Source: Salinigranum rubrum
GTDB lineage: Archaea > Halobacteriota > Halobacteria > Halobacteriales > Haloferacaceae
Direction of reading: 5' to 3'
NCBI RefSeq assembly: GCF_002906575.1
Contig: NZ_CP026309.1
Span: 992,001 to 1,056,000 of the forward strand
DNA length: 64,000 nucleotides
Made by a program: the position numbers and the translations under genes. The notes under the pieces are model-generated. The model was given only the letters and a program-made list of their open reading frames with translations, ran no database searches and had not been told where the DNA came from. Of this stretch, positions 9,667-56,964 are shown one piece after another (within the stretch, counting starts at the first letter, position 1; each line of letters starts with the position of its first letter).

Positions 9667-9990
9667 AGTGAGGCTTGGGGCGGTCCGGGCAAAAGGGTTC
9701 TCCCGGTGGGTCTTGGTTCGTGAGCGGATTTACGGAGTGATTGGATACGCCAACTGCACATTCATGAGTGTATTCGTAACAGAGAGGACCGCACGAGCGC
9801 CAGGCGGTTCACCGCGCCCGTGCCCCGCACGACTATCCCGCTCTCACCGACTGAGTCAGAGGAGACTCTACAGACTACAATCACTGGATACGTTCTCCGT
9901 ACTCGTCGCCCTTCGTCGACCATCCACCACCTGCTCGTCACCACAACTGGGCCGTCACACTTTGTACCACCGAGTCCTACCCCACACCCG
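9667..9990. other. Intergenic stretch of 324 bases
   Basis: Divergent gap between the SPFH gene and endonuclease III. Its base composition is slightly lower in GC than its neighbours. I see no gene, RNA or clear repeat. It presumably holds both promoters. Confidence 0.5.
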
Positions 9991-10812
9991 ATGACCGAGA
10001 AGCGAGACGAACCCGCCGAGAACATCAGCGGCGGCGAGCAGGGCGGCGGCGCGTTCACCGCGTTCGACGCCGACGCCGAAGGGGGACCGACCACGCGCGC
10101 GGAGGCCGTCGTCGACGAACTCGGGGCGATGTACTGGCAGAAGGCCTACGGCGGACAGGACGGCTTCGAGTGCCTCGTCCGGACGATTCTGAGCCAGAAC
10201 ACCTCCGACAAGGCGAGCCAGCCCGCCCACGACAGCCTCATGAATCGGTACGGTCCCGCCGACGAACTGGCGGAGAACCTCGCGGACGCCCCGCAAGACG
10301 AACTCGCCGAGACCATCTCCTCCGCTGGACTGTACAACCAGAAGTCGGAGGTCATCGTTCGGGTGGCGGAGTGGGCGCTCGACGAGTACGGCTCGACCAC
10401 CGAATTCGACCGGTTCGTCCGCGACGGAGAGCCGGGGGTGGTCCGCGACACCCTCCTCTCGCTGAAGGGCGTCGGCCCGAAGACGGCCGACTGCGTCCTC
10501 CTCTTTGCCGGAGGGCGCGGCGGCGTCTTCCCCGTCGACACCCACGTCCACCGCATCGCCCGGCGGATGGGGCTCGCGCCGCCCGACGCCGACCACGAGG
10601 AGGTAAGAGAACACCTAGAGCGCGACGTTCCTGGCGAGAAGTGCGGCTTCGGCCACACCGCGATGATCCAGTTCGGTCGGGAGTACTGCTCGGCCCGGAA
10701 ACCGGCGTGTCTCGACGGGCCCGAGGCGTGCCCGCTGTACGACCTCTGCGAGCGAGTCGGAATCGACGAACTCGACGGCGAGGTGGTCGACCCCGCCCAG
10801 GCCGCCGACTGA
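9991..10812 (+). CDS. nth: Endonuclease III (DNA glycosylase/AP lyase)
   Basis: A 273-residue HhH-GPD base-excision glycosylase for oxidised pyrimidines. The helix-hairpin-helix LKGVGPKTADCVL contains the catalytic Lys, and the aspartate is in PVDTHVHRI. A [4Fe-4S] loop of four cysteines follows (C in REYCSARKPAC, PEAC, LYDLC). ILSQNTSDK is the usual motif of helix 2. Compared with bacterial Nth (about 210 residues) it has a 40-residue acidic N-terminal extension. I chose ATG at 9991; the upstream frame (9820) is low-quality. Confidence 0.92.
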   Translation: MTEKRDEPAENISGGEQGGGAFTAFDADAEGGPTTRAEAVVDELGAMYWQKAYGGQDGFECLVRTILSQNTSDKASQPAHDSLMNRYGPADELAENLADAPQDELAETISSAGLYNQKSEVIVRVAEWALDEYGSTTEFDRFVRDGEPGVVRDTLLSLKGVGPKTADCVLLFAGGRGGVFPVDTHVHRIARRMGLAPPDADHEEVREHLERDVPGEKCGFGHTAMIQFGREYCSARKPACLDGPEACPLYDLCERVGIDELDGEVVDPAQAAD

Positions 10813-10841
10813 CCTTTGTTCCCGCCGCGTCAAGGGTCGGT

Positions 10842-11699
10842 ATGACCACCGACTCCGCGTACTCGATGCCCGCCTCGGCGCACCCCGGCCGCATCGCGCT
10901 CCGCGTCGGCGACGTCGACGGACTCCTCCCGTTTTATGCGGACGTGCTCGGCTTCGACGTCGACCGCACCGGCGACACGACCGTCCTCTCGGCGGGCGGG
11001 ACTCCGCTGGTCCTCCTGAACGAGGACTCCGACGCGCCCTCGCGCCCGAGCGACGCCGCGGGGCTGTTTCACCTCGCTATCCGGGTCCCCTCCCGGGCGG
11101 CGCTGGGCGATGTCCTCTCCCGCGTCGACGGCTCCTCGTACTCTCTATCTGGCGCGTCGGACCACCTCGTGAGCGAGGCGCTCTACCTCCGCGACCCCGA
11201 GGGGAACGGCGTCGAGGTGTACCGCGACCGCCCGCGCGAGGAGTGGACCTTCGAGGGAGAGAGAGTGAAGATGGACACGCTCCCGCTCGACCTCGACGCG
11301 CTCGGGGACGCCGCGACGGGCGCGAGCGCCGACAGGCTCCCCGACGAAACGGACCTCGGCCACGTCCACCTCGAAGTCTCGTCGCTCGGGGAGTCGAGAG
11401 CCTTCTACGTCGACACGCTGGGCTTGAACGTCCGGACGGAGTCGTACCCCGGCGCGCTGTTCGTCGCCGCGGGCGACTACCACCACCACGTCGGGTCGAA
11501 CACGTGGAACGGCCGACGAACTCCGGCGGGCGACCATCGGGGTGTCGAGTGGTTCGAGTTCCTCGTTCCCGACGCGGCGCAGGTGGACGCACTTCACGAC
11601 GCGCTCGGCCGCGACGCGGCCCACGAGGCCGACCGCGACGGGGACACGCTCGCTCTCACCGACCCGGACGGCGTCGGGGTCCGCGTTCGGCCGGTCTGA
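10842..11699 (+). CDS. Two-domain VOC protein (glyoxalase/extradiol dioxygenase-like)
   Basis: A 285-residue protein with two vicinal-oxygen-chelate modules: about 15-130 (HPGRIALRVGDVDGLLPFYADVLGF ... LRDPEGNGVEVYRD) and about 170-285 (LGHVHLEVSSLGESRAFYVDTLGL ... HHHVGSN ... LTDPDGVGVRV). The duplicated layout matches CatE-type catechol 2,3-dioxygenase-like proteins with a divalent-metal site. No aromatic pathway genes are near, so the reaction is unassigned. It begins 29 bases after nth, and may be cotranscribed. Confidence 0.82.
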   Translation: MTTDSAYSMPASAHPGRIALRVGDVDGLLPFYADVLGFDVDRTGDTTVLSAGGTPLVLLNEDSDAPSRPSDAAGLFHLAIRVPSRAALGDVLSRVDGSSYSLSGASDHLVSEALYLRDPEGNGVEVYRDRPREEWTFEGERVKMDTLPLDLDALGDAATGASADRLPDETDLGHVHLEVSSLGESRAFYVDTLGLNVRTESYPGALFVAAGDYHHHVGSNTWNGRRTPAGDHRGVEWFEFLVPDAAQVDALHDALGRDAAHEADRDGDTLALTDPDGVGVRVRPV

Positions 11700-11722
11700 G
11701 CCTCCTCGACCGCGTAGCGAGG

Positions 11723-12250
11723 TCAGCGCGAACAGGCCGCCTCCTCGACCGGACCGTCGACCGGGACGTCGCTCTCTCGATAGTCGGCGTCGGCCACCGT
11801 CCCCTCGAACGCGGGGATGGTGAGCCGGTAGTCGAAGGCGAACGCGAAGGGACCGAAGGGGTCGGAGAGGAACGCCGTGGCGTCCTCGCTCCCCTCGAAC
11901 AGCACGCCGGTCTGCAGCGAGACGACCTCTGCGGTTTCGGTCGTCGCGACGGCCTCGAAGCCGAGCGCGCCGAGTGCGGCCGGTGGGAGGTTCGTGTCCG
12001 TGCCCGTTTTGACCGGTTCGTCACCCTGGAGGACCGCCGACAGGAGCGACAGGTGGACGACGAACCGTATCTGTGGGCCCTCGGTGCCGACGACGAACTC
12101 CGTCCCGTCCGACGGGAAACAGCGGTCAGCGTGCGCGGCGTCCGCTCCGGCAGTCGCGGCCGCTGCGGAACCGGCGGTGCTGTAGGCGACTAAGAGCGCC
12201 ACGACCAGTGCGACTCGGACCGATTCGCTGAACGACCCGCGGAGGACCAT
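11723..12250 (-). CDS. Secreted haloarchaeal protein of unknown function
   Basis: A 175-residue protein. The N-terminus has a Sec-type signal (hydrophobic VALVVALLVAYSTAG at about 13-27, Ala-rich region at 28-40). The mature part begins with RCFPSDGTEFVVGTEGPQIRFVVHLSLL, which I recall in haloarchaeal families such as DUF7332. It has two Cys (about 44 and 173), possibly a disulfide. It is convergent with the VOC gene. Function unknown. Confidence 0.65.
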   Translation of the reverse strand: MVLRGSFSESVRVALVVALLVAYSTAGSAAAATAGADAAHADRCFPSDGTEFVVGTEGPQIRFVVHLSLLSAVLQGDEPVKTGTDTNLPPAALGALGFEAVATTETAEVVSLQTGVLFEGSEDATAFLSDPFGPFAFAFDYRLTIPAFEGTVADADYRESDVPVDGPVEEAACSR

Positions 12251-43622: not shown

Positions 43623-43790
43623 ATGGTGGACTCCACCCGATCCGATGGACGGGATCGCGCCGCAGACCACGACCCCGCTGTCGAGGTCGAGACATACGAG
43701 GTCGACGGCGGCACCGTCTTCTTCGACGCCGAGAACCCCTTAGCGTGGGTCGAGGCGACGCGTACGGTGCGACTCACCGACGTCGCTTAA
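43623..43790 (+). CDS. 55-residue haloarchaeal protein (DUF7331-like): integration target, 3' end rebuilt
   Basis: A small acidic protein: MVDSTRSDGRDRAADHD, then VETYEVDGGTVFFDAENPLAWVEATRTVRL, ending TDVA. I recall the pattern (ETYExDGGxVFxDAENPLAW) as a conserved haloarchaeal family, possibly DUF7331. The last 69 bases before the final two codons are the left copy of the element's direct repeat. The last codons (GTC GCT TAA) come from the element side; the right copy ends GTG GCC TGA. The encoded residues are the same, so the gene stays functional. Confidence 0.85.
   Translation: MVDSTRSDGRDRAADHDPAVEVETYEVDGGTVFFDAENPLAWVEATRTVRLTDVA
43715..43783. repeat. attL: left 69-bp direct repeat
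   Basis: Identical over 69 bases to 56811-56879. Before it the sequences differ (C at 43714, T at 56810), after it too (C at 43784, G at 56880). It lies inside the 3' end of the DUF7331-like gene. Confidence 0.95.
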
Positions 43791-43792
43791 GC

Positions 43793-43817
43793 CCGATATC
43801 GCGCTTATCGGTTTTTT
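43793..43817 (+). terminator. Hairpin plus T6 right after the target gene
   Basis: CCGATA (43793-43798) and TATCGG (43806-43811) form a 6-bp stem, followed by TTTTTT at 43812-43817. It is element DNA just after the rebuilt stop codon and fits an intrinsic-like terminator of the small gene. Confidence 0.55.
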
Positions 43818-44260
43818 GACCGTTGTAGACAACCCATGCAGTAGGCTCGCTTCTCTGCTGTGTGGCGGTTCACTTGTATAGTGGACGTGAGCGTTCGAAA
43901 GTGTTTCTATCGAGTGTTTACTCAGTGAAGAGTCAATTCACTGGTGTGTCGTGTCCTTCTACAGTGTGAAGACCGAGCTGATAGTAAAGAATCTCTGACA
44001 CATTTATGTGATTACTCTCGTGCATGGTTATGACAGGTTGTGGGTTTGATCTTGACGAAGCATGAAGTGGTGTACGACCAGAGACTCACCTGGGGGCGCA
44101 ATGGCAGAGAGTAGTTCTCTCTCAACGGTGGCCGCTCAGATGCGTCATTGAAGCGTGGTCACGATACAACGGTACGACCAGTCACCCTCTGACGCCAGAA
44201 GACGAATACTGAAGAATATAAATTCACTTTCATGTTCTGATTGATTAGCTGTATGGCTTA

Positions 44261-44350
44261 GTTGGAGCGTGTTGCGGTCGTGGCTGCGTTCGGTTGAGTG
44301 AGCGCGGGGACGCTCACTCCACCTCAACGACCACTGACCGCTGAACACGT
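44261..44350. repeat. Left copy of the 90-bp inverted repeat with hairpin
   Basis: About 90% identical to the inverse of 55473-55562, with weaker similarity continuing about 15 bases on either side. It contains the perfect hairpin GAGTGAGCG, 6 bases, CGCTCACTC. See findings for the compensatory change. Confidence 0.85.
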
Positions 44351-44697
44351 GGTCATGTGATTGAGTTTAGAGGGTGGTCGGCCAAACACATAGTGTGCTT
44401 GCGCAACCGAACAATGACACCAACATTCGCACCACTGTGTAAATTCCGTCCTCAAACGAGGGATACTACTCGTCGGTCTGTGAAGTTCGTCAGAGTAACG
44501 TCACAGCTCACTGTTTACTTCAGTCTCTCTTCTGATGAGTAGCCGTAGCCCCACCCAACAGAACAGACTAAAAATTGGATCGTAAAAAATCATGGACGAT
44601 GGTTCGTTACGTGGATTTGCGTCAAACTTGTTAAGAGTGTCATACTATAGAAGATGCACCGATTATGTAGTCTTGGCGTTAGTGATGATCGATTAGG

Positions 44698-46032
44698 TCA
44701 CCTCTGCAAGCTCAACCTATCAGGTAGTCTCTGAAGTGGATCTCCAGGGAAGTCAAACCATTTTGGAACTTCATGCCGTGGTGTCAAGTTCTCTACGTAG
44801 CCAATATTCATCCCAAACAACAGTGATGCATCTTTTTCCACTTTATACTCGCTCGTACTAATCACCACTCCCGAAATGGACTTACTCAGGTTCAATTTTC
44901 CATTAATTCCGTTGCAGAGACTATCAAACTCGTCGTAAGTGAAATTTGAAAGGAATGGTACCCCTATGTGCAAGATGTTGGGTGAGTCCGCCGAATATTT
45001 CCCTCGTGCTCGGTTGAACTGTCGGAGTACCTGTTTCACTCGGTCGACCTCAAATTCCTCAAGGATTCCGATGAACTGAGCGTGATTAATCAGAAACTTG
45101 TCTGTTTGCTCTTGACTTCCAGGCACTTTCGTATGCAGGTGCTTTCCACTAAACTTACTCAGTTCGAACTCCTGACCGAGATGTTCTTTCACCTCGGGTC
45201 TGACATACTTATTATAGAACTTCAGGGGGACTTGACCAACCGTATTAGGAGTCCTTTCAACAAACATTTGATTTTCGTGATTATTCAGGGGAATAAATGA
45301 CACATCACAAAAAATGATTCTTTCCGTGTGAAAGCCGTCTATTTTTGACTCGTCAGGAAGATGCTCACTGAAGCTATGAACCTCGCTACTGCTTGGCTCA
45401 CGAAATATGTCCACTGTTATGATTAGATCGCCGTCATACTTCGACTCGATTGCCTTCTGAATCACCTCTTGCTTTCCCCCGTGCTTTTGATGTCTTCCAG
45501 AAACGGTGTTACACCGCTTACACTCGACAAAAATTTTTGACTTGTCAGAAATTAGAAGGTCAGGTGCCTTCGTGTTTCCTTCCTGAATGAAGTCAACTTG
45601 GTAGCCCTCTCGGGCATAGGCTGCAGCTGTCTCAACTTCGAAGAGGGTCTCTTGCCACTCATCGACGTTTTGAATTCTCGGTCTTAGACATGGATGTACC
45701 TCCTCTGAAACAATTTTTCCACTGGGGTTCCTTACCTGTGATCCAGAAATATGTCGTAGATGTTCCCCTATGACTACCAATTGGTGTGTGTTTGTAGAAT
45801 AATGTTCATCCGTGAATAATTCGGGTGCGTCGATCTTTTCATCGAACAACTCAACCCTCCCGCGATGGTACTTAACCACGAGTGGATGGGGGCTGGCTTG
45901 GTGCTTGTGGTCCCGAAAGTCATCAGTGTATTCTTTGGATCGTTCTTGTTCCAGCCATTCTTCCCCGATAAAATCCACCGCTCTTTCGAAGTTTTTTCTC
46001 AACTCGCGGGAACCTGCATCATAATCCACCAT
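44698..46032 (-). CDS. PD-(D/E)XK nuclease-like protein
   Basis: A 444-residue protein. The nuclease core is visible at about 125-175: Glu132/134 in FEVETAAAYAREGYQV, Pro157-Asp158 in APDLLI, and Glu170-x-Lys172 in KIFVECKR. The rest is predicted soluble, mixed alpha/beta. No helicase or specificity domain is seen. It follows the 265-residue gene on the same strand by 79 bases, so a two-gene operon is likely. Restriction-like or defence role is inferred. AT-rich codon use. Confidence 0.72.
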   Translation of the reverse strand: MVDYDAGSRELRKNFERAVDFIGEEWLEQERSKEYTDDFRDHKHQASPHPLVVKYHRGRVELFDEKIDAPELFTDEHYSTNTHQLVVIGEHLRHISGSQVRNPSGKIVSEEVHPCLRPRIQNVDEWQETLFEVETAAAYAREGYQVDFIQEGNTKAPDLLISDKSKIFVECKRCNTVSGRHQKHGGKQEVIQKAIESKYDGDLIITVDIFREPSSSEVHSFSEHLPDESKIDGFHTERIIFCDVSFIPLNNHENQMFVERTPNTVGQVPLKFYNKYVRPEVKEHLGQEFELSKFSGKHLHTKVPGSQEQTDKFLINHAQFIGILEEFEVDRVKQVLRQFNRARGKYSADSPNILHIGVPFLSNFTYDEFDSLCNGINGKLNLSKSISGVVISTSEYKVEKDASLLFGMNIGYVENLTPRHEVPKWFDFPGDPLQRLPDRLSLQR

Positions 46033-49244: not shown

Positions 49245-50114
49245 ATGACCCATCACTCTGTCACGAGAACGCTAAGTGACCTTTCTTTTGCGGTGTACGA
49301 AATTGAGTCAGGTGATGTTGACACGTACGACCCGATAGACGACTCGTGGGTGTGGCATGGTAATCCAATACAAGGTGATGCTGAACGGGCAGTAGAGCGA
49401 TTATTCGAGACTACTCTTGGGTATGGTGTCCGAAATATCGATCACAAACAAAAGTATCCACTTCAGAACGCGTTAGGACTCAAACTAAACCATTCCCGAC
49501 GAAGTTTCATTTCGTATCCGCCTGAGTGGGTTCCAGAATATCTAACGAACGAGATTGTATCGAAATCGTCATCTGTAGGTGATGCCGATCCACTTGATCT
49601 CGTAGAAAGAGATGGAATCCCAGACTTGCTTGTATACACGAAGGAGTCCCCACATGAATGCACGCTTGTTGAGGTGAAAATGCCGCCAGAGACATTCGAG
49701 CCCACCCAAATCGAGTGGTTCAAGCAATTTCCATTCTTGGATATCCGTGTGGCATGCGTATTTGAAAGCCAGAACCAACGCGATCAATTCATCAGCTCAT
49801 ACACAGTGGAGAAGTTGCTACAAAATGTAGCACAAGAAGCACCTGACCGTCCCGAACTACCGCCCAGTGAACTCCGAGATGTAATTGAACAGGTAGAAGT
49901 TGGGGACCGCATTCTCTTCAATGAGCGCCAATCTCCTTACACGGTCGTTAGTACAGATGCGACGCGTTCAACCAATCAGAGAGAGGTGAGTGGAATAGAG
50001 GTACAATCACGGAACGGTAATACGTACGTACTTTCTGAGGCTGGTGATTGGTATTGTGGTAACGGGCCTTACTGTCGGTCCTTGTGGTGGGCGGAGTTAA
50101 TCACCGACTCATAG
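49245..50114 (+). CDS. VRR-NUC-like nuclease
   Basis: A 289-residue protein. The nuclease-like core runs at about 45-165: Glu in ERAVERLF, GIPDLLVYTK (Pro126-Asp127), CTLVEVKMP (Glu143-x-Lys145) and Q155 in PTQIEWFKQF. PD...ExK...Q is the VRR-NUC arrangement. The C-terminus has a short beta region with ERQSPYTVVSTDATR and WYCGNGPYCRS. Typical VRR-NUC proteins act on DNA junctions or replication forks; here it stands alone, so a defence role is inferred. Confidence 0.68.
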   Translation: MTHHSVTRTLSDLSFAVYEIESGDVDTYDPIDDSWVWHGNPIQGDAERAVERLFETTLGYGVRNIDHKQKYPLQNALGLKLNHSRRSFISYPPEWVPEYLTNEIVSKSSSVGDADPLDLVERDGIPDLLVYTKESPHECTLVEVKMPPETFEPTQIEWFKQFPFLDIRVACVFESQNQRDQFISSYTVEKLLQNVAQEAPDRPELPPSELRDVIEQVEVGDRILFNERQSPYTVVSTDATRSTNQREVSGIEVQSRNGNTYVLSEAGDWYCGNGPYCRSLWWAELITDS

Positions 50115-50355: not shown

Positions 50356-51945
50356 TCATGCATATGCTTTTTCAAATTCTAAAAAAGTCTGGAGAATGTC
50401 AAACAGAAGGGTGATTGACATCCCCCAGCTTGCCTGTGGGTACGGCAAGTAGCCGTGGGCGATTTGATTTCGGAGATTCTGCCCAGACAACTCCCCGTAC
50501 CTGTATCGGAGATACGTAACCCAAGACTCGCTTAGCTCTTCCTCTACTTGATATAAAACGCCAGCCATTGACCTTCGTTTCAGTTCGCCTGTTTCTTCAT
50601 TTTGGCTCAAAACACTCTTTCCGCTATCGGCTGCCAGCGTTCGAATAACAGCTTCAAGTTGCGTCATACCGATGTGAACAGCCGCTGAGTGATTGTGTTC
50701 AAACAGGTGAATTACAAAATCTGTAATATAAGCGTGAGTGTCTGCTGAAAGTACATCCAAAGTATTGAATAGAACAAACAGGTCACCTTCTGTTAGAAGA
50801 CCTCGATTTTGCAGGCGATAGTATACAGACTGTCTAATGCTCTGAATAAATTGGACCATTGCTCCGTAGCTGTGTGGTAAATCTTCTATCGTACTTTCGT
50901 CCTGTGAGTAGGATTCACCAGCTTGTGAAACCGTTATTCGCTGGACAAAGCCCATGATACTACCCTCGGATATGTCTCTGGCCACCTCGATATCGGGAGC
51001 GAATATATTATGATTGAGAAGCCATTTAATCGCGAAGATAGCGTTTCGTTCGTTTTTCCAGTCTCGGAATTTCTTGACAAGGCCCTCCACTGCATCATCA
51101 AGCTCACTTATATCTTCCTCCGATGGCTCATGTGTAATCTCCGCCATCTGTTCAATGCTTAATTTATTACCTTCAATGAATTCCTGTTCCCACTCAACAC
51201 GCTGAGATTCATCAATCCATTCATTACATTCGGTTATAGCTTCTTTAGCTATTGTCGCCCGAATGGAATGTTTTTCATTTGTCTTCAGCGATTCAAGCTC
51301 GTCATTGTAGGATTTGATGATTGCGGCGATCGCAGGTCCCGTATCCAATCCTTCGGAATCACGAACCTCCAAGTTCTGCCGCCATAGCTTCCTATGGTTT
51401 CTGTAGTCCTCGGCAGTGATGGCTCTCTCTGCATGAGCCTCAAGATAATCAATCAGTATTCCAATTGTGGGTGTACCTGAAACTGAATTCAGATTGGCTG
51501 CTATCGTCTCAAGAATTCTAAAGACTGAGTCAATGGCTATCGACTCCTTATTTTCAACGAGAAAGAAGAGCGCCAGTTTGACCTCGGCTTTTAATTCACT
51601 TTCATGATTGAGGTCGCTCAGTAGATCAATTCGTTGTATAACCAGAATAGGGAAGAGACTGCTCCAGTCCTCTTCAATCACAGTATCGATAGCCTCTCTG
51701 AGATCATCAAGTGCAGGTTCAGCTCCGTGGTGATACTCTCTATCCTCAATCCATCTGGATAGTCCAACAAGGAAACTCACCAATGGGTGCTCCGTCTCAG
51801 ACTCGCATATTTCGACTCGAATTTGCTCTGGTGACCGTCCCCAGTCTTGTCGTAGCTCACGAAGTACGGACGAAAGTTCAATATCGAATCTCGAACTCTG
51901 AGGGCCGTTTTCAATCAGCGACTCAAGTTCTTCCGTGAGGCGCAT
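50356..51945 (-). CDS. DUF4209-like protein with a C-terminal HEPN-type Rx4H motif
   Basis: A 529-residue, almost entirely helical, acidic protein. Near the end is GQNLRNQIAHGYL: Arg492-x4-His497, with Asn493, as in HEPN ribonucleases and in DUF4209. A helix with VLYQVEEELSESWVTYLRYRYGEL precedes it. No membrane segment or other catalytic motif. DUF4209 proteins occur in antiviral contexts. RNase activity is inferred from the motif only. The gene seems inserted into a noncoding repeat copy. Confidence 0.62.
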   Translation of the reverse strand: MRLTEELESLIENGPQSSRFDIELSSVLRELRQDWGRSPEQIRVEICESETEHPLVSFLVGLSRWIEDREYHHGAEPALDDLREAIDTVIEEDWSSLFPILVIQRIDLLSDLNHESELKAEVKLALFFLVENKESIAIDSVFRILETIAANLNSVSGTPTIGILIDYLEAHAERAITAEDYRNHRKLWRQNLEVRDSEGLDTGPAIAAIIKSYNDELESLKTNEKHSIRATIAKEAITECNEWIDESQRVEWEQEFIEGNKLSIEQMAEITHEPSEEDISELDDAVEGLVKKFRDWKNERNAIFAIKWLLNHNIFAPDIEVARDISEGSIMGFVQRITVSQAGESYSQDESTIEDLPHSYGAMVQFIQSIRQSVYYRLQNRGLLTEGDLFVLFNTLDVLSADTHAYITDFVIHLFEHNHSAAVHIGMTQLEAVIRTLAADSGKSVLSQNEETGELKRRSMAGVLYQVEEELSESWVTYLRYRYGELSGQNLRNQIAHGYLPYPQASWGMSITLLFDILQTFLEFEKAYA

Positions 51946-52651
51946 CAGTTATTCACTACAGAAATTGCTACGTATTCATGATTACGCCAACCCCGAGAAG
52001 CATACATTATGACCATCTGAAACCCATGATGAACATCACTCGCTTAACAATCGGGGACACAAAACTATGCTTCAGCAGCTTAGTGTCCTAAGCTACACTG
52101 CACCCTCGTTTATTGAACTACTATGCTACCCTATCTAAGCGGTACACTGACCGCCAAGTGGATGAAGATAACACACGGTGAACGTGTGTGACGTTAGCCA
52201 CGTAACGACTACTCGTCTGACCCAACCACGTTTCTTGGGTGTTGATAGATAACCTCCCCTGTGTCTCTGATTGTTCCTTTTCGCTTCTAATCTTGACGGG
52301 GGGGACCGATAGTCCTTCACCAGAAGGGAATCTGAGACCAACAGTAAACCCTGTGACTGCATCTTACGAACTCCGATGACTGAGTAGTGGTATCCATCGT
52401 CTGAACAAGGATTTCACACAGTGGTGTGTATGGTGGCATCCTTGGAATCTGTGAGACGGTTCTGACCGAGCATGAGTTGGGCCGTTCCACCACCAGCTAT
52501 TAACACACTTCAGGAGTTGTACTGAATACAGAGCGCGTAGGCAGCAACAGTCTTGAAACTGCAAGCAGGGGGTTCAAGACATTATGGCCGCAAATGGACA
52601 TGTCACCATCTGTTCGTCCGTTATGCACAGGTGAGACGCCCACTTTGTCAC
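51946..52651. other. 706-base gap carrying copy A, second part
   Basis: AT-rich noncoding DNA upstream of the DUF4209-like gene. It carries the stem ACACACG/CGTGTGT (52171-52190) within repeat copy A; several short frames are not convincing. Confidence 0.5.
52105..52455. repeat. Long repeat, copy A, second part
   Basis: About three-quarters identical to 53240-53580, including TTGAAC...CTA, ACACACGGTGAACGTGTGTG, TCTAATCTTGACGGG and CTTACGAACTCC-like blocks. No coding potential seen. Confidence 0.65.
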
Positions 52652-52957
52652 ATGGCCTCAAATGACCCTCCTCGCGAGAGTGAAGACGAATCCGATGTCC
52701 AACAAGCCCTCGACGGTGAGTGGCACGAACAGCAAAACACTCCAGTGACGGTTCTGACCGACACGAAAGAGGACTCTCAGTCGTCGGCGCGTGTGAGTGT
52801 GCTTGAACCCGAGAGTGATGAGAAAGAAGCCGTCGCCCTGGCGGTTGAATCACAGAACGAGGATCACTTAGTCAAAATCGACGTCGATTCAGCGTTGGTG
52901 TTATCTGATAAACTCGGACAGGTAGCCGAGAGGGTGTCATCCAAAGTAGGTCGGTAG
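52652..52957 (+). CDS. Small acidic protein of unknown function
   Basis: A 101-residue protein: MASNDPPRESEDESDVQQALDGEW, an acidic middle, and a C-terminal half with VALAVESQNEDHLVKIDVDSALVLSDKLGQVAERV. The acidic halophilic composition and a hydrophobic second half suggest a real gene, but no family is recognised. The frame is open further upstream (52553); ATG 52652 is preferred by composition. Confidence 0.45.
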   Translation: MASNDPPRESEDESDVQQALDGEWHEQQNTPVTVLTDTKEDSQSSARVSVLEPESDEKEAVALAVESQNEDHLVKIDVDSALVLSDKLGQVAERVSSKVGR

Positions 52958-53134
52958 CCATAGTTGCGGTCGTGCTGAATACACTCTCTGTTTGTAGCAC
53001 GCGGTTCGTATCAAGCTCTGAGTGTTTCGACAGATCCCAGTATCACCTTGACTGTCTCAGAACGCTCACTTCGTACGTAGCCCATGGCGGTTCAACCATC
53101 TTGACTGGTATTCAACTCACATATCATTCCCACG

Positions 53135-53580
53135 GGTGATCTCCACGTGGCTGGATTCTACTGCCCCGCACTGACGTCAGCCACGTGACGAACTGTGTTA
53201 GAATGACGAGACAGACAAGACAACATATGGGCTATCTCTTGAACCTGTTCTACACCCCTATCCAAGCAGCACACCGACGGTCATGTGGGTGAGGACGACA
53301 CACGGTGAACGTGTGTGGCGCTACCCACGTAGCAGCCCGACTTGACACGTTTCTTCGGTGTCGACGGATGGCCTCCCCCGTGTCTCTGACTGCTCCTCTT
53401 CGTTTCTAATCTTGACGGGTGGAATCGATAGTCATTCACCAGAGTCGATTCTGAGGCCAGCAGTAGGTCATGTGACTACATCCTACGAACTCCACAGACT
53501 GATGAGTGGTATCTCCCGTCTGAGGAGAGAGTTCACACAATAGCACGTATTGTAGCGTCACTGAATCTGTAAGACGAACA
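53135..53580. repeat. Long repeat, copy B (intact unit)
   Basis: Stem 1: CACGTGGCTG (53144-53153)/CAGCCACGTG (53178-53187) with a TGACGTCA palindrome inside the loop side. Stem 2: ACACACG, GTGAA, CGTGTGT at 53298-53317 within a wider ATGTGGGT/ACCCACGT stem. Then TCTAATCTTGACGGG. The only contiguous copy. Confidence 0.65.
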
Positions 53581-53609
53581 GAGGACTATAGGATGTGTAG
53601 AGGTGTTCC

Positions 53610-53705
53610 AGGTGGCAGCCCAAGCAGCACGCTGATTGTCACGTGGATGAGGACGACACATGGTGAAGGTGTGTGAGGCTACCCACGTGACGACCAATCT
53701 GTGAT
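53610..53705. repeat. Long repeat, copy C (partial)
   Basis: Carries CAAGCAGCACGC, then CACGTGG, ACACATGGTGAAGGTGTGTG and CCCACGTG: an outer CACGTGG/CCACGTG stem of 7 bp around a weaker inner stem. It corresponds to the middle part of copy B. Confidence 0.55.
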
Positions 53706-53763
53706 GACTGAGGGTTCACATGGAGCAATAGCTTCGTATTGACTGCCACTAAACAGTCGGTTC

Positions 53764-53982
53764 ATGCCGACACATCTGTGGAAATACGCCCGTCAACGAT
53801 GCTGTGTCTGTGGAAAAAGTACGGAGAGAGATGGCATCGACCGTGTGAACCGCCACTACATAAATCGGGAACGAGATGAGTGGATACCAGTCTGCCAGGG
53901 TTGTCAAACTCGAATATATCACGAGTCTGGTTACTATGATGAACTTCAGTTGACCGAGGCATCTTCAGAGGACTGTGCATGA
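53764..53982 (+). CDS. Small CxxC zinc-finger protein
   Basis: A 72-residue protein. Cysteines at RCCVCGK (C13, C14, C16) and VCQGCQ (C44, C47), with HYINRERDEWIP between, resemble a treble-clef or degraded HNH nuclease-like finger; the metal-binding and catalytic His of true HNH are not evident. Likely a small nucleic-acid-binding protein. No operon partner adjacent. Confidence 0.5.
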   Translation: MPTHLWKYARQRCCVCGKSTERDGIDRVNRHYINRERDEWIPVCQGCQTRIYHESGYYDELQLTEASSEDCA

Positions 53983-54458
53983 TAGTCGTGATTCTCATCC
54001 ACAGGCTGTGTTGAGGTACCAGTCTCTTCCGAGGGGTGCCGATCCAGTACGTGATTCAAGCACGTGAAGGCCACATACGTATATTCACTTGTATGAAAGA
54101 TACTCACCTCTCAATCTACCTAAGTGACCGTCACTTAGTCTATTCGCGCCGCTTCACGTGGATATACGTGAAGACGGTACTTCCACCTCCGTGCTCGGCA
54201 CGCGGTTAATTCCACGTGCATGGGATCCATCCCCTTGCTCACAATCGCGGGAGTGCCATCAGGCACGTCACACAACCAACCGCCTTGAAGCGGTACCATG
54301 CCACTGTACATGTTTTCGAGAGCATGGCGTTGCGAGATCACGTCTCGGGTGGCTAATCCTTCGTAGTTGTGAGAATGTCACGAGTGTATATAAACTCTCT
54401 CTTGAAGAGTCAGTCAGTTGTCCGTAAGGTCCTAACTCGTGGAATCAGTGGGGTCGGT
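53983..54458. other. 476-base gap with palindromes
   Basis: Contains TAAGTGAC/C/GTCACTTA (54121-54137) and CTTCACGT/GGATAT/ACGTGAAG (54152-54173), both perfect. They precede the HEPN-like gene and could be operator sites. No credible gene seen. Confidence 0.55.
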
Positions 54459-55448
54459 ATGGACTGCTCACCTGAAAAGTGCCTCAGACTGTTCGAGCAG
54501 TTCGATCTAACGGATTTCTACGAGAGTCGCCTCGCAACGTATGCTTTGGAGGATTACTACACGAGTGTACTTTCTAACGTCGGTGGGGAATACCTGGACT
54601 TCGACACGGATCTTCAGGATCAAAACATCGGCCCACAGTGGAATGTAGCAAAGAGACGACTGACGTCAGTCGAGGTGGTCAACGACATACCCTCAAACTA
54701 CAGTCGGGCCATCCATCAGTTGTCTCGAACTCGTCAGTCAGTGGCTCACGGCTATGACCATCGACCAGACAACAGACATCTGATGGAAGCGTATGAGATT
54801 GCCGTGGACTGGCGGGAATGGCTTACTGAGAAGGCTAAACAGTATCACAGGCTCGAATCAGATACAGTCAGCAGGGAAGTTCTGATTACAGATACGATCA
54901 ATGCTCTGAATGCATCGTTAGTAGACCCAGAGAAGTACGACTACGATTTCATCCGTGTAAAACAAAGAGAAATTAATGATGAGATACGAGACAAACTGGA
55001 GTACGAATTTACTCCCTTCACCGTTGACGACATGGCCATTCAACTCAGGAGCAGCGTGGATGAAGTGGATGAGTTCTATCCTCACGAAGATTCACGTGAG
55101 GTGCAGCGTGAGCTGTGGCATCTGTTTGAATGGGCCATGGAGATGAAACGTTCTGTTGACAATCTGTACTATACTGATGTGAATCGAATCGAGCGTAAGG
55201 TTGCCGTCAAGACTGCGACACACGGGGGAATGTGTTCTGTCGTCCACGAGTACGACGAGTCTACGGGAGAAATCCAGTTGATGGTACATGAGGCCGAGAA
55301 CAAGAAGGAACACACGTGGTGTGAAGTAGATCTTCTTCCCGAGGACGATCGAACGATACTCCTACAGAAAAGCGTGGGTGAAACAGTAGAGGCGATTCTC
55401 GGTGTTGGTGAGTCTGGTGAATGGTACGTCCGCCATGTGGTTAGCTAA
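54459..55448 (+). CDS. HEPN-type protein with Rx4H motif
   Basis: A 329-residue acidic protein. Near the N-terminus, LSRTRQSVAHGYDH contains Arg92-x4-His97, the HEPN RNase motif, within helical sequence. The C-terminal third (about 255-329) is beta-rich. The GG-rich stretch before ATG 54459 could be a ribosome site; the frame is open from 54369. No kinase or nucleotidyltransferase partner is adjacent, unlike typical HEPN/MNT pairs. RNase activity is inferred. Confidence 0.6.
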   Translation: MDCSPEKCLRLFEQFDLTDFYESRLATYALEDYYTSVLSNVGGEYLDFDTDLQDQNIGPQWNVAKRRLTSVEVVNDIPSNYSRAIHQLSRTRQSVAHGYDHRPDNRHLMEAYEIAVDWREWLTEKAKQYHRLESDTVSREVLITDTINALNASLVDPEKYDYDFIRVKQREINDEIRDKLEYEFTPFTVDDMAIQLRSSVDEVDEFYPHEDSREVQRELWHLFEWAMEMKRSVDNLYYTDVNRIERKVAVKTATHGGMCSVVHEYDESTGEIQLMVHEAENKKEHTWCEVDLLPEDDRTILLQKSVGETVEAILGVGESGEWYVRHVVS

Positions 55449-55472
55449 TACCTCAAACACTCACTCATATGA

Positions 55473-55562
55473 ACGTGTTCAGCGGTCAGTGGTCGTTGAG
55501 GTGGAATGAGCGTTTCGCGCTCATCTCCACCGAAACGCAGCCACGACCGCAACACGCCCAAC
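55473..55562. repeat. Right copy of the 90-bp inverted repeat with hairpin
   Basis: Inverse of 44261-44350 with few differences. Its hairpin is GGTGGA-ATGAGCG, loop TTTCG, CGCTCAT-(C)-TCCACC. It lies between the convergent HEPN-like gene and the integrase gene. Confidence 0.85.
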
Positions 55563-55602
55563 TACTACATACAACTATGTAAAATAATTCTCATCAGATG
55601 AG

Positions 55603-56640
55603 TTAGATGTTCGAAAGATACTGTCGTCGTTGTTCTGTCTTTTCGTCCTCTGAACGTCGGTCGTAGTGCTCTGAAAGTACGTCTTGAGATACGTTCATAC
55701 GATCACTGACGACCTTTTCTGGAACATCTTTTCGGAGGTGGTGTGTGATTGCTCCACGACGCACTGGATGACCTGAGACGCTACTCGGACAATCACTTGC
55801 ATCTACTGACCGCTGAGCCGCATCACATTCTGCAGGAATACGATTGTGCGGACACTCAATTCCATAGGCACATGGGCGTGTAGCGGTCTGGAACCAGCGT
55901 CGGAGTGTCTTTACAGGTGCTCGCCCATTCTTGGTTGTAAACAGAGGCTTTCGTCCGTATTCATCGTTTACCTTAGTGCGGTTCTGTTTGATGTAGTCGT
56001 GAAGAATTTCGACCACCTCGCCAGAAAGTGCTATGTATCGCTCTGCATATTCGCCATTTTTCAGTGGTGTTCCTTCGTCTGGACGATGTCTAATTCTGAG
56101 ACGATTCTTCGTCATCTCAACGTCATCAACATCCAAACCACGAAGCGTACCTGAACGAATTCCAGCGTGCCATGTAAGCGATAGCAACGCATGTTCACGG
56201 CTTGCGTATGCGAATCTCCGAAGATAATTGAGAACCTCGTTAGCTGCCTCCGTCTCCAGTATCTCTTCCCGTGCTTGTGGATCTCGTTTTGGGAGTTCCA
56301 CTCTCTCTGGAACAGACGGATTAATTGCATCGATGGACGCACAGAACTGGAGAAAGCGACGTACTGTGCTCACACGCTGTGCAAGTGTACTTTGTGCGAT
56401 GTCGGCTTTAATTTGGAGACGGAAACTGTGGACCGTTCTCGCAGTCACGTCTCGCATGTCTGTTATGTTCTCTTCTTCAAGCCAGGTAGTGAACTGATCC
56501 ACGTGGAAGCGTTGCAGCTTGAGGGTAGCTGCCGCCAATTCGTCCATTCGGCTCTCCACCCAGAGTCGTGCTGCATCCTCTGGTGTGAGTGCTTCTAAGC
56601 CTGATCTCGATGTAGCCTTGGTGTGTTGTTCCCCGTTCAT
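55603..56640 (-). CDS. Tyrosine recombinase (integrase) of the element
   Basis: A 345-residue XerD-type integrase. N-terminal SAM-like domain (EALTPEDAARLWVESRMDELAAATLKLQRFHVDQFTTWL) and catalytic domain with AGIRSGTLRGLDVDDV (first Arg), HPVRRGAITHHL (HxxR) and LSEHYDRRS (Tyr). A zinc-like insert is HNRIPAECDAAQ. I chose Met at 56640; the frame is open to 56754 and reaches into the right repeat region. It is adjacent to attR, as usual for such elements. Confidence 0.92.
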   Translation of the reverse strand: MNGEQHTKATSRSGLEALTPEDAARLWVESRMDELAAATLKLQRFHVDQFTTWLEEENITDMRDVTARTVHSFRLQIKADIAQSTLAQRVSTVRRFLQFCASIDAINPSVPERVELPKRDPQAREEILETEAANEVLNYLRRFAYASREHALLSLTWHAGIRSGTLRGLDVDDVEMTKNRLRIRHRPDEGTPLKNGEYAERYIALSGEVVEILHDYIKQNRTKVNDEYGRKPLFTTKNGRAPVKTLRRWFQTATRPCAYGIECPHNRIPAECDAAQRSVDASDCPSSVSGHPVRRGAITHHLRKDVPEKVVSDRMNVSQDVLSEHYDRRSEDEKTEQRRQYLSNI

Positions 56641-56750
56641 TGGTTTCTCTGAACCACCACGATTGGGCAGAACGCGGTGGCAGGCGTACGCGTGACGACA
56701 ACCGCAGCCTGCCCACCGATATCGAGACATACGGGGTCTACGGCGGTATC

Positions 56751-56777
56751 TCAAGGAGTCGCGGTTTGACTCCTTGA
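56751..56777. other. Hairpin inside the diverged target-gene copy at the right end
   Basis: TCAAGGAGTC (56751-56760), loop GCGGTTT, GACTCCTTGA (56768-56777): a 10-bp perfect stem. It sits in a stretch of about 61 extra bases that separate a diverged piece of the target gene (ETYGVYGG, 56724-56747) from the attR repeat. Confidence 0.6.
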
Positions 56778-56810: not shown

Positions 56811-56879
56811 CGTCTTCTTCGACGCCGAGAACCCCTTAGCGTGGGTCGAGGCGACGCGTACGGTGCGACTCACCGACGT
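56811..56879. repeat. attR: right 69-bp direct repeat
   Basis: Identical to 43715-43783. It ends the element; the following bases GTG GCC TGA complete the reading frame of the target gene as DVA-stop, as in the left copy. Confidence 0.95.
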
Positions 56880-56964
56880 GGCCTGACCCTCCGGTCACGA
56901 CACCGGTCACGACGCGCCGCCTCGATGCCGAACTGTTTTGCTCTCGGGCCCGCTTTTCACACCT

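Follow-up and report, generated by a model that had tools for sequence, protein, structure and literature searches.

Two genes of a 13.1-kb integrative element in the chromosome of the haloarchaeon Salinigranum rubrum encode proteins with the R-x4-H motif of HEPN RNases, one of 529 residues with a match to the family DUF4209 and one of 329 residues. The element lies in a stretch of 64,000 nucleotides (the window). On balance, we favor the reading that these are two unrelated single-gene HEPN proteins, carried as independent cargo and predicted to act as self-contained, infection-triggered RNases. The two open reading frames (ORFs) and their motifs are as follows.

50356-51945, minus strand: ORF of the DUF4209 protein, 529 residues, with an N-terminal part of ~380 residues followed by a predicted C-terminal HEPN domain
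50458-50475, minus strand: RNQIAH codons (R492-H497 of the 529-residue protein), reckoned from the ORF start at 51945
54459-55448, plus strand: ORF of the 329-residue protein, HEPN-like at ~1-145, with a helical middle to ~244 and a C-terminal beta domain at ~249-328
54732-54749, plus strand: RQSVAH codons (R92-H97 of the 329-residue protein), reckoned from the ATG at 54459

The ATG at 54459 is the start used here for the 329-residue protein; the mechanical ORF list has a GTG at 54369.

HEPN domains of the two proteins

A preliminary description of this DNA had placed one such motif in each protein, and we found both at the residues it named, RNQIAH at 492-497 and RQSVAH at 92-97, in ORFs at the coordinates it gave. 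The bare motif is frequent: among the 41 window ORFs that do not overlap and have 150 residues or more, R-x4-H occurs in 26 and R-[NDQH]-x3-H in 8. Because of this frequency, the case for HEPN rests on residue conservation among relatives, which is found in both families.

In the DUF4209 family, every one of the 26 alignment rows that span the motif has R492, N493, H497, and G498; a 27th row is a shortened gene copy without the motif region, and several rows are near-identical to one another. Pfam DUF4209 (PF13910) matches residues 430 to 501 of the window protein (E = 2.6e-6, 27.8 bits against a cut-off of 22.3), and the PADLOC candidate defense family PDC-S39 matches it chiefly at residues 417 to 503 (E = 1.6e-11). 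A literature word search for DUF4209 gave a sole match, the HEPN survey of Anantharaman et al. 2013 (PMC3710099), whose passages on the family name DUF4209 as HEPN, predict catalytic activity for the C6orf70/DUF4209 proteins, and report the family in restriction-modification related operons. Thus, from the literature together with motif conservation, the predicted HEPN identity of this protein is well supported, already published, and not new. Its relatives occur in 27 of the 391 sampled haloarchaeal genomes, S. rubrum included; plasmid records gave five family matches and viral contigs two distant relatives, and none was found in phage records. Several homologues of 698 to 780 residues (loci L026, L029 to L032, and L034) have an extra 170 to 250 residues past the HEPN motif, which the window protein does not have.

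Searches of Pfam and NCBIfam (E up to 1) and of PHROGs (E up to 0.01) gave no match for the 329-residue protein, and PADLOC gave a weak Cas13d match alone (E = 0.17). Relatives are present in 13 of the 391 genomes, its own included, and a profile search of equal size recovers the same 13; viral contigs, phage records, and plasmid records hold none. Three columns of the N-terminal domain, R24, W61, and H97, are invariant in all 13 rows, and R92 is present in 11, where the residue after it is N in seven rows, D in two, Q in one, and G in one. The motif residues are therefore kept among homologues of both proteins, as the preliminary description would have it, completely for R492 and H497 (26/26) and for H97 (13/13) and largely for R92 (11/13).

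The predicted structure points the same way. A full-length single-sequence model of the 329-residue protein reached a mean predicted local distance difference test score (pLDDT) of 44.2, with the C-terminal beta domain at low confidence, and a model of residues 1 to 146 built from two sequences, the protein and one relative, reached a pLDDT of 88.5 and a predicted template modeling score of 0.82. This model has helices at 5-14, 20-45, 57-70, 79-97, and 105-144. R92 and H97 close helix 79-97, the third long helix, ahead of the next long helix; the HEPN motif sits at the end of helix 3 in the survey's account of the fold (PMC3710099). The N-terminal model is thus HEPN-like with a motif that closes helix 3, in agreement with what the preliminary description proposed for this protein. 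The two best Foldseek matches of the model in the PDB were both to the HEPN domain protein 4nqf (E = 0.084 and 0.18). In VIA-align, 4nqf was again the top match (Z = 10.1, root-mean-square deviation 4.3 over 126 residues), and of the first 21 rows, 15 belong to HEPN proteins as judged by title or literature, at Z values of 10.1 to 7.7; sacsin, HepT toxins, and two Csm6 entries are among them. The fold evidence carries weight because HEPN entries fill the top of this ranking and other helical bundles begin only at Z = 7.6. A viral structure library gave nothing with E below 0.5.

Sequence matches of the 329-residue family are weak and fall on the motif. Two homologues match DUF4145, which we take to be a HEPN family, and DUF3644 at residues 58 to 108, below the cut-off (E = 0.0038 and 0.0032), a stretch that contains R-x4-H. 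DUF3644 is classed as HEPN in the survey's family listing (PMC3710099). A search for DUF4145 in 40 relatives found none. The best PDB matches of the N-terminal domain profile are four CRISPR-associated protein entries (E = 0.041 to 0.094), one of them titled Marinitoga Csx1-Crn2, with RNSVAHG on the motif. A literature search found no papers on PDB entries 8y6z and 8y7f. The full-length profile matched hemagglutinin coiled coils at 133-214, which we judged to be an effect of composition and discarded. Conservation, predicted fold, and these weak matches together make it highly probable that the N-terminal domain has the HEPN fold. The proteins would then form a haloarchaeal HEPN family that has no name in Pfam, NCBIfam, PADLOC, or PHROGs and, being nameless, is one whose novelty the literature cannot show.

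Several results weigh against reading both proteins as HEPN RNases of defense. R92 is replaced by serine in two related rows of the 13 (L005 and L006). Non-HEPN families score like DUF4145 and DUF3644 in other homologues of the 329-residue protein (MJ1010-like, 0.0022; UPF0122, 0.0036), so that the DUF4145 and DUF3644 matches are insufficient alone for a HEPN assignment. Neither the profile of the DUF4209 protein nor that of its C-terminal domain matched a HEPN structure in the PDB, and comparison of this C-terminal domain profile with that of the 329-residue family was not significant (probability 2.2%). For the 1-146 model, Foldseek found nothing in the PDB at E ≤ 0.001, and the Z values of VIA-align are to be read knowing that helical bundles reach ~10 by arrangement without kinship. 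In addition, although the nearest neighbors of relatives include DISARM, BREX-like, Hma, and restriction genes, ordinary metabolic genes are found there as well, in listings of 25 families each with no control set.

Two alternatives bear on these domains. Both could be HEPN folds without catalysis, that is, RNA-binding or regulatory proteins, as is said of MtlR, rather than toxins; the survey notes non-catalytic HEPN domains (PMC3710099), MtlR is among the structural matches of the 1-146 model, and serine stands for R92 in 2 of the 13 homologues. We consider this unlikely, as H97 is invariant and R92 kept in the other 11 rows, while RN-x3-HG is invariant in the DUF4209 family. That the 329-residue protein is not HEPN at all, its R-x4-H having arisen by chance in a bundle of helices, would fit the 26 of 41 window ORFs with the motif, the lack of a significant family match, and the Foldseek E value of just 0.084, but residue conservation, the position of the motif in the model, and HEPN entries atop an unselected PDB comparison make this very unlikely.

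Some loci of the 329-residue family deserve mention in their own right. In Natronococcus jeotgali (L063), a gene for 395 residues (10763-11950) with RNRVVH near its C terminus begins 30 bp past a serine-bearing homologue at 9986-10732, and the two may be a silent and an active HEPN protein; no HEPN match was found for the 395-residue neighbor. In L091 (8312-11520), the family gene stands between two integrase-like genes, 11 bp and 107 bp away. In L085 (9743-10707), the homologue is broken, with its C-terminal domain in another frame right after an A run. We considered and rejected this C-terminal-domain gene as a detached regulator, since it is out of frame past the A run and relatives are fused at that point; we read the locus as a broken gene copy, from decay or sequencing error.

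Antitoxins, neighbors, and RNA partners

The preliminary description saw no antitoxin and took the missing MNT partner as unusual. The first part stands: none of the ten element ORFs matches an MNT-type family in Pfam at E up to 1. PF05168 was not found in the S. rubrum genome, and beside relatives no MNT antitoxin appears among the families listed, 25 of 52 and 25 of 40. The second part is not supported, as MNT partners mark only some HEPN families in the survey and many families lack one, DUF4209 included (PMC3710099). Because the survey gives MNT partners for certain families only, solo HEPN genes are usual rather than odd.

To describe the surroundings of relatives, we compiled 33 neighborhoods of 14 to 20 kb, 20 for DUF4209 and 13 for the 329-residue family, which are not independent (one genome, G139, holds two near-identical copies). 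Tyrosine integrase is the only widely recurring neighbor, in 10 of the 33 against ~4% expected, a baseline taken from 270 matches in 40 related genomes (~129 Mb in rounded sizes), not the neighborhoods' own genomes. No other neighbor cluster occurs in more than 5 of the 35 neighborhoods that were compared with the window, and none keeps a fixed distance to the HEPN gene. A hidden protein partner was rejected on comparing 270 frames of the element (stop to stop, at least 30 codons) with 36 neighborhood records: none is related at E ≤ 1e-3 outside the HEPN genes and the integrase, with antisense frames over these genes set aside.

Noncoding repeats lie between the two HEPN genes.

52129-52440, no strand: noncoding repeat unit, copy 1
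53256-53559, no strand: noncoding repeat unit, copy 2, 78-82% identical to copy 1
53614-53689, no strand: third piece of the noncoding repeat, 76 nucleotides, 71% identical

These repeats had been suggested as RNA partners, and they, or upstream transcripts, could act as RNA antitoxins of the HEPN proteins in the way that RCd22 neutralizes AbiF, a HEPN-family abortive infection protein of C. difficile, in the published account of that pair (PMC12373285). The repeats contain hairpins and stand between two HEPN genes. However, they are restricted to the S. rubrum element among 148 genomes of the family, bar an edge of 23 to 37 bp: within S. rubrum, copies occur only at 52100-52560, 53256-53576, and 44412-44538 (the last inverted and partial), and in the 147 other genomes, matches are limited to that edge, near 52505-52555, in 11 genomes. 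Folding of ten stretches was unremarkable (z = -1.71 to +1.13), and Rfam gave no family at gathering score and one sub-threshold CRISPR-repeat match. The 600 nucleotides upstream are likewise unconserved: compared with those of six relatives for DUF4209 and five for the 329-residue family, the window sequence showed nothing significantly similar, and matches of 14 and 17 nucleotides link two relatives alone (E = 0.90 and 0.021). On this evidence of distribution, folding, upstream comparison, and Rfam, we rejected RNA partners for now and consider them most improbable: the idea is reasonable given the AbiF precedent, yet nothing in this element supports it. The stretch at 52505-52555, which the 11 genomes share without the remainder of the repeat unit, is possibly an insertion-sequence end.

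As to the two HEPN proteins working together, which the preliminary description also implied, none of the 390 sampled haloarchaeal genomes besides S. rubrum has both families, with 26 and 12 carriers and 0.8 shared genomes expected; with S. rubrum included, the counts are 27 and 13 of 391 with one shared (P = 0.61). A single two-subunit system, to which the siting of both genes in one 13-kb element 2.5 kb apart would be favorable, is thus exceedingly improbable and was rejected on genome co-occurrence and on the unmatched profiles, the genes also being on opposite strands and in separate neighborhoods in relatives, with the caveat that distant relatives may escape searches with single proteins. 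Each gene appears to be solo cargo, unrelated to and independent of the other.

The integrative element and its cargo

The remaining features that we annotated in the element are listed below.

43715-43793, plus strand: attL, a direct repeat of 79 nucleotides, 95% identical to 56811-56889
44246-44373, no strand: left subterminal inverted repeat, 86% over 131 alignment columns to the right copy
44698-46032, minus strand: cargo ORF of 444 residues, a possible Mrr-like nuclease, with a weak PADLOC ZorD match at residues 119-199 (E = 0.0008)
49245-50114, plus strand: cargo ORF of 289 residues with a VRR-NUC nuclease domain (Pfam VRR_NUC, E = 6.2e-6, 26.7 bits against a cut-off of 23.8)
55451-55577, no strand: right subterminal inverted repeat, an inverted copy of 44246-44373
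55603-56754, minus strand: tyrosine recombinase (integrase; Pfam Phage_integrase, E = 1.3e-9; PHROG integrase, E = 2.2e-30)
56811-56889, plus strand: attR, 79 nucleotides, a direct repeat of attL at a spacing of 13,096

The integrase, the att repeats, and an empty site define a 13.1-kb integrative element in a haloarchaeal chromosome. At the empty site of a sister species (G349), one att copy is bordered by the left and right flanks seen in S. rubrum, with no insert. G+C content drops from ~0.64 to 0.46-0.51 between 44 and 56 kb of the window. By eye, the att repeat makes up the 3' terminus of a small ORF, which the left copy keeps whole; the site lies between genes that, from reading the sequence, probably encode DNA polymerase B and Rad50. 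The integrase sits just inside attR and outside the ~130-bp inverted repeats, which were not found in the other neighborhood loci examined. Even with E values of up to 1 admitted, Pfam gave nothing for the 444-residue cargo ORF. A 72-residue ORF at 53764-53982, upstream of the 329-residue gene, has two CxxC pairs and a weak DUF7479 match (E = 0.045), and the neighborhood records hold no relative of it. Of the preliminary picture of a HEPN pair in a defense-like element, what survives is that both proteins are probably HEPN and sit in a mobile element with nuclease-like cargo; the lack of an MNT partner as an anomaly, the joint system, and the RNA partners are not supported.

Predicted action and known systems

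In the reading that we favor, each protein would be a metal-independent endoRNase that is kept silent by additional domains of the same protein, with no need of a separate antitoxin. The silencer may be the long N-terminal part in the DUF4209 protein and the helical middle plus C-terminal beta domain in the 329-residue protein. Infection or another stress would release the RNase, which might cut cellular or viral RNA and so halt growth, leading to abortive infection. The C-terminal beta domain is present in the window protein and two homologues (L002 and L007) and missing from several others, a patchiness as expected for an exchangeable sensor. More tentatively, and with more doubt than confidence, the 329-residue family could be a new haloarchaeal class of self-contained antiviral HEPN RNases, in which an exchangeable C-terminal sensor replaces the antitoxin and, in the serine branch, a silent HEPN protein may regulate an active one, the N. 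jeotgali locus being the candidate case.

Within prokaryotic immunity, HEPN RNases that lack an MNT partner make up a large share, mostly untested and with few archaeal examples. If the favored reading is true, the element adds two small haloarchaeal candidates of one gene each, and one of these belongs to a family without a name in Pfam, NCBIfam, PADLOC, or PHROGs; a single plasmid per gene would suffice for a test in a laboratory haloarchaeon. It also illustrates that neighboring HEPN genes need not form a system, cross-genome co-occurrence being the test.

Among known families, the 529-residue protein resembles DUF4209/C6orf70 in its Pfam match above the cut-off and its R-N-x3-H. The survey's entry gives the distribution of that family as "Bacteria > Eukaryotes" (PMC3710099), whereas the branch described here is haloarchaeal and has a long N-terminal part, with a further C-terminal extension in some homologues. 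PDC-S39 is matched by the C-terminal part of this protein only. AbiF/AbiD, in the account given of them (PMC12373285), share with the present case a HEPN abortive-infection protein on a mobile element and differ from it in the RNA, the S. rubrum element having no Rfam match and no conserved upstream RNA. Toxins of the type VII system HepT/MntA (HEPN-MNT) have the same fold class and are among the structural matches, and the ten element ORFs include no MNT family. Csx1/Csm6 proteins come close in two comparisons: Marinitoga Csx1-Crn2 is the best PDB sequence match of the 329-residue domain profile, aligned on the motif at E values that are not significant, and Csm6 chains match the 1-146 model at Z = 8.2 and 7.8. 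Unlike them, the 329-residue protein has its HEPN domain at the N terminus and shows no CRISPR link; Pfam gave no CARF match for it, its C-terminal beta domain being modeled at low confidence. HepS of the Salmonella Gifsy-1 prophage matches the 1-146 model at Z = 6.8, within the range of unrelated bundles and with no sequence relation shown. It likewise consists of one HEPN protein, its PDB titles describe a complex with the phage lambda J tail tip, and it represents a HEPN effector that is triggered by a viral protein and works without an antitoxin.

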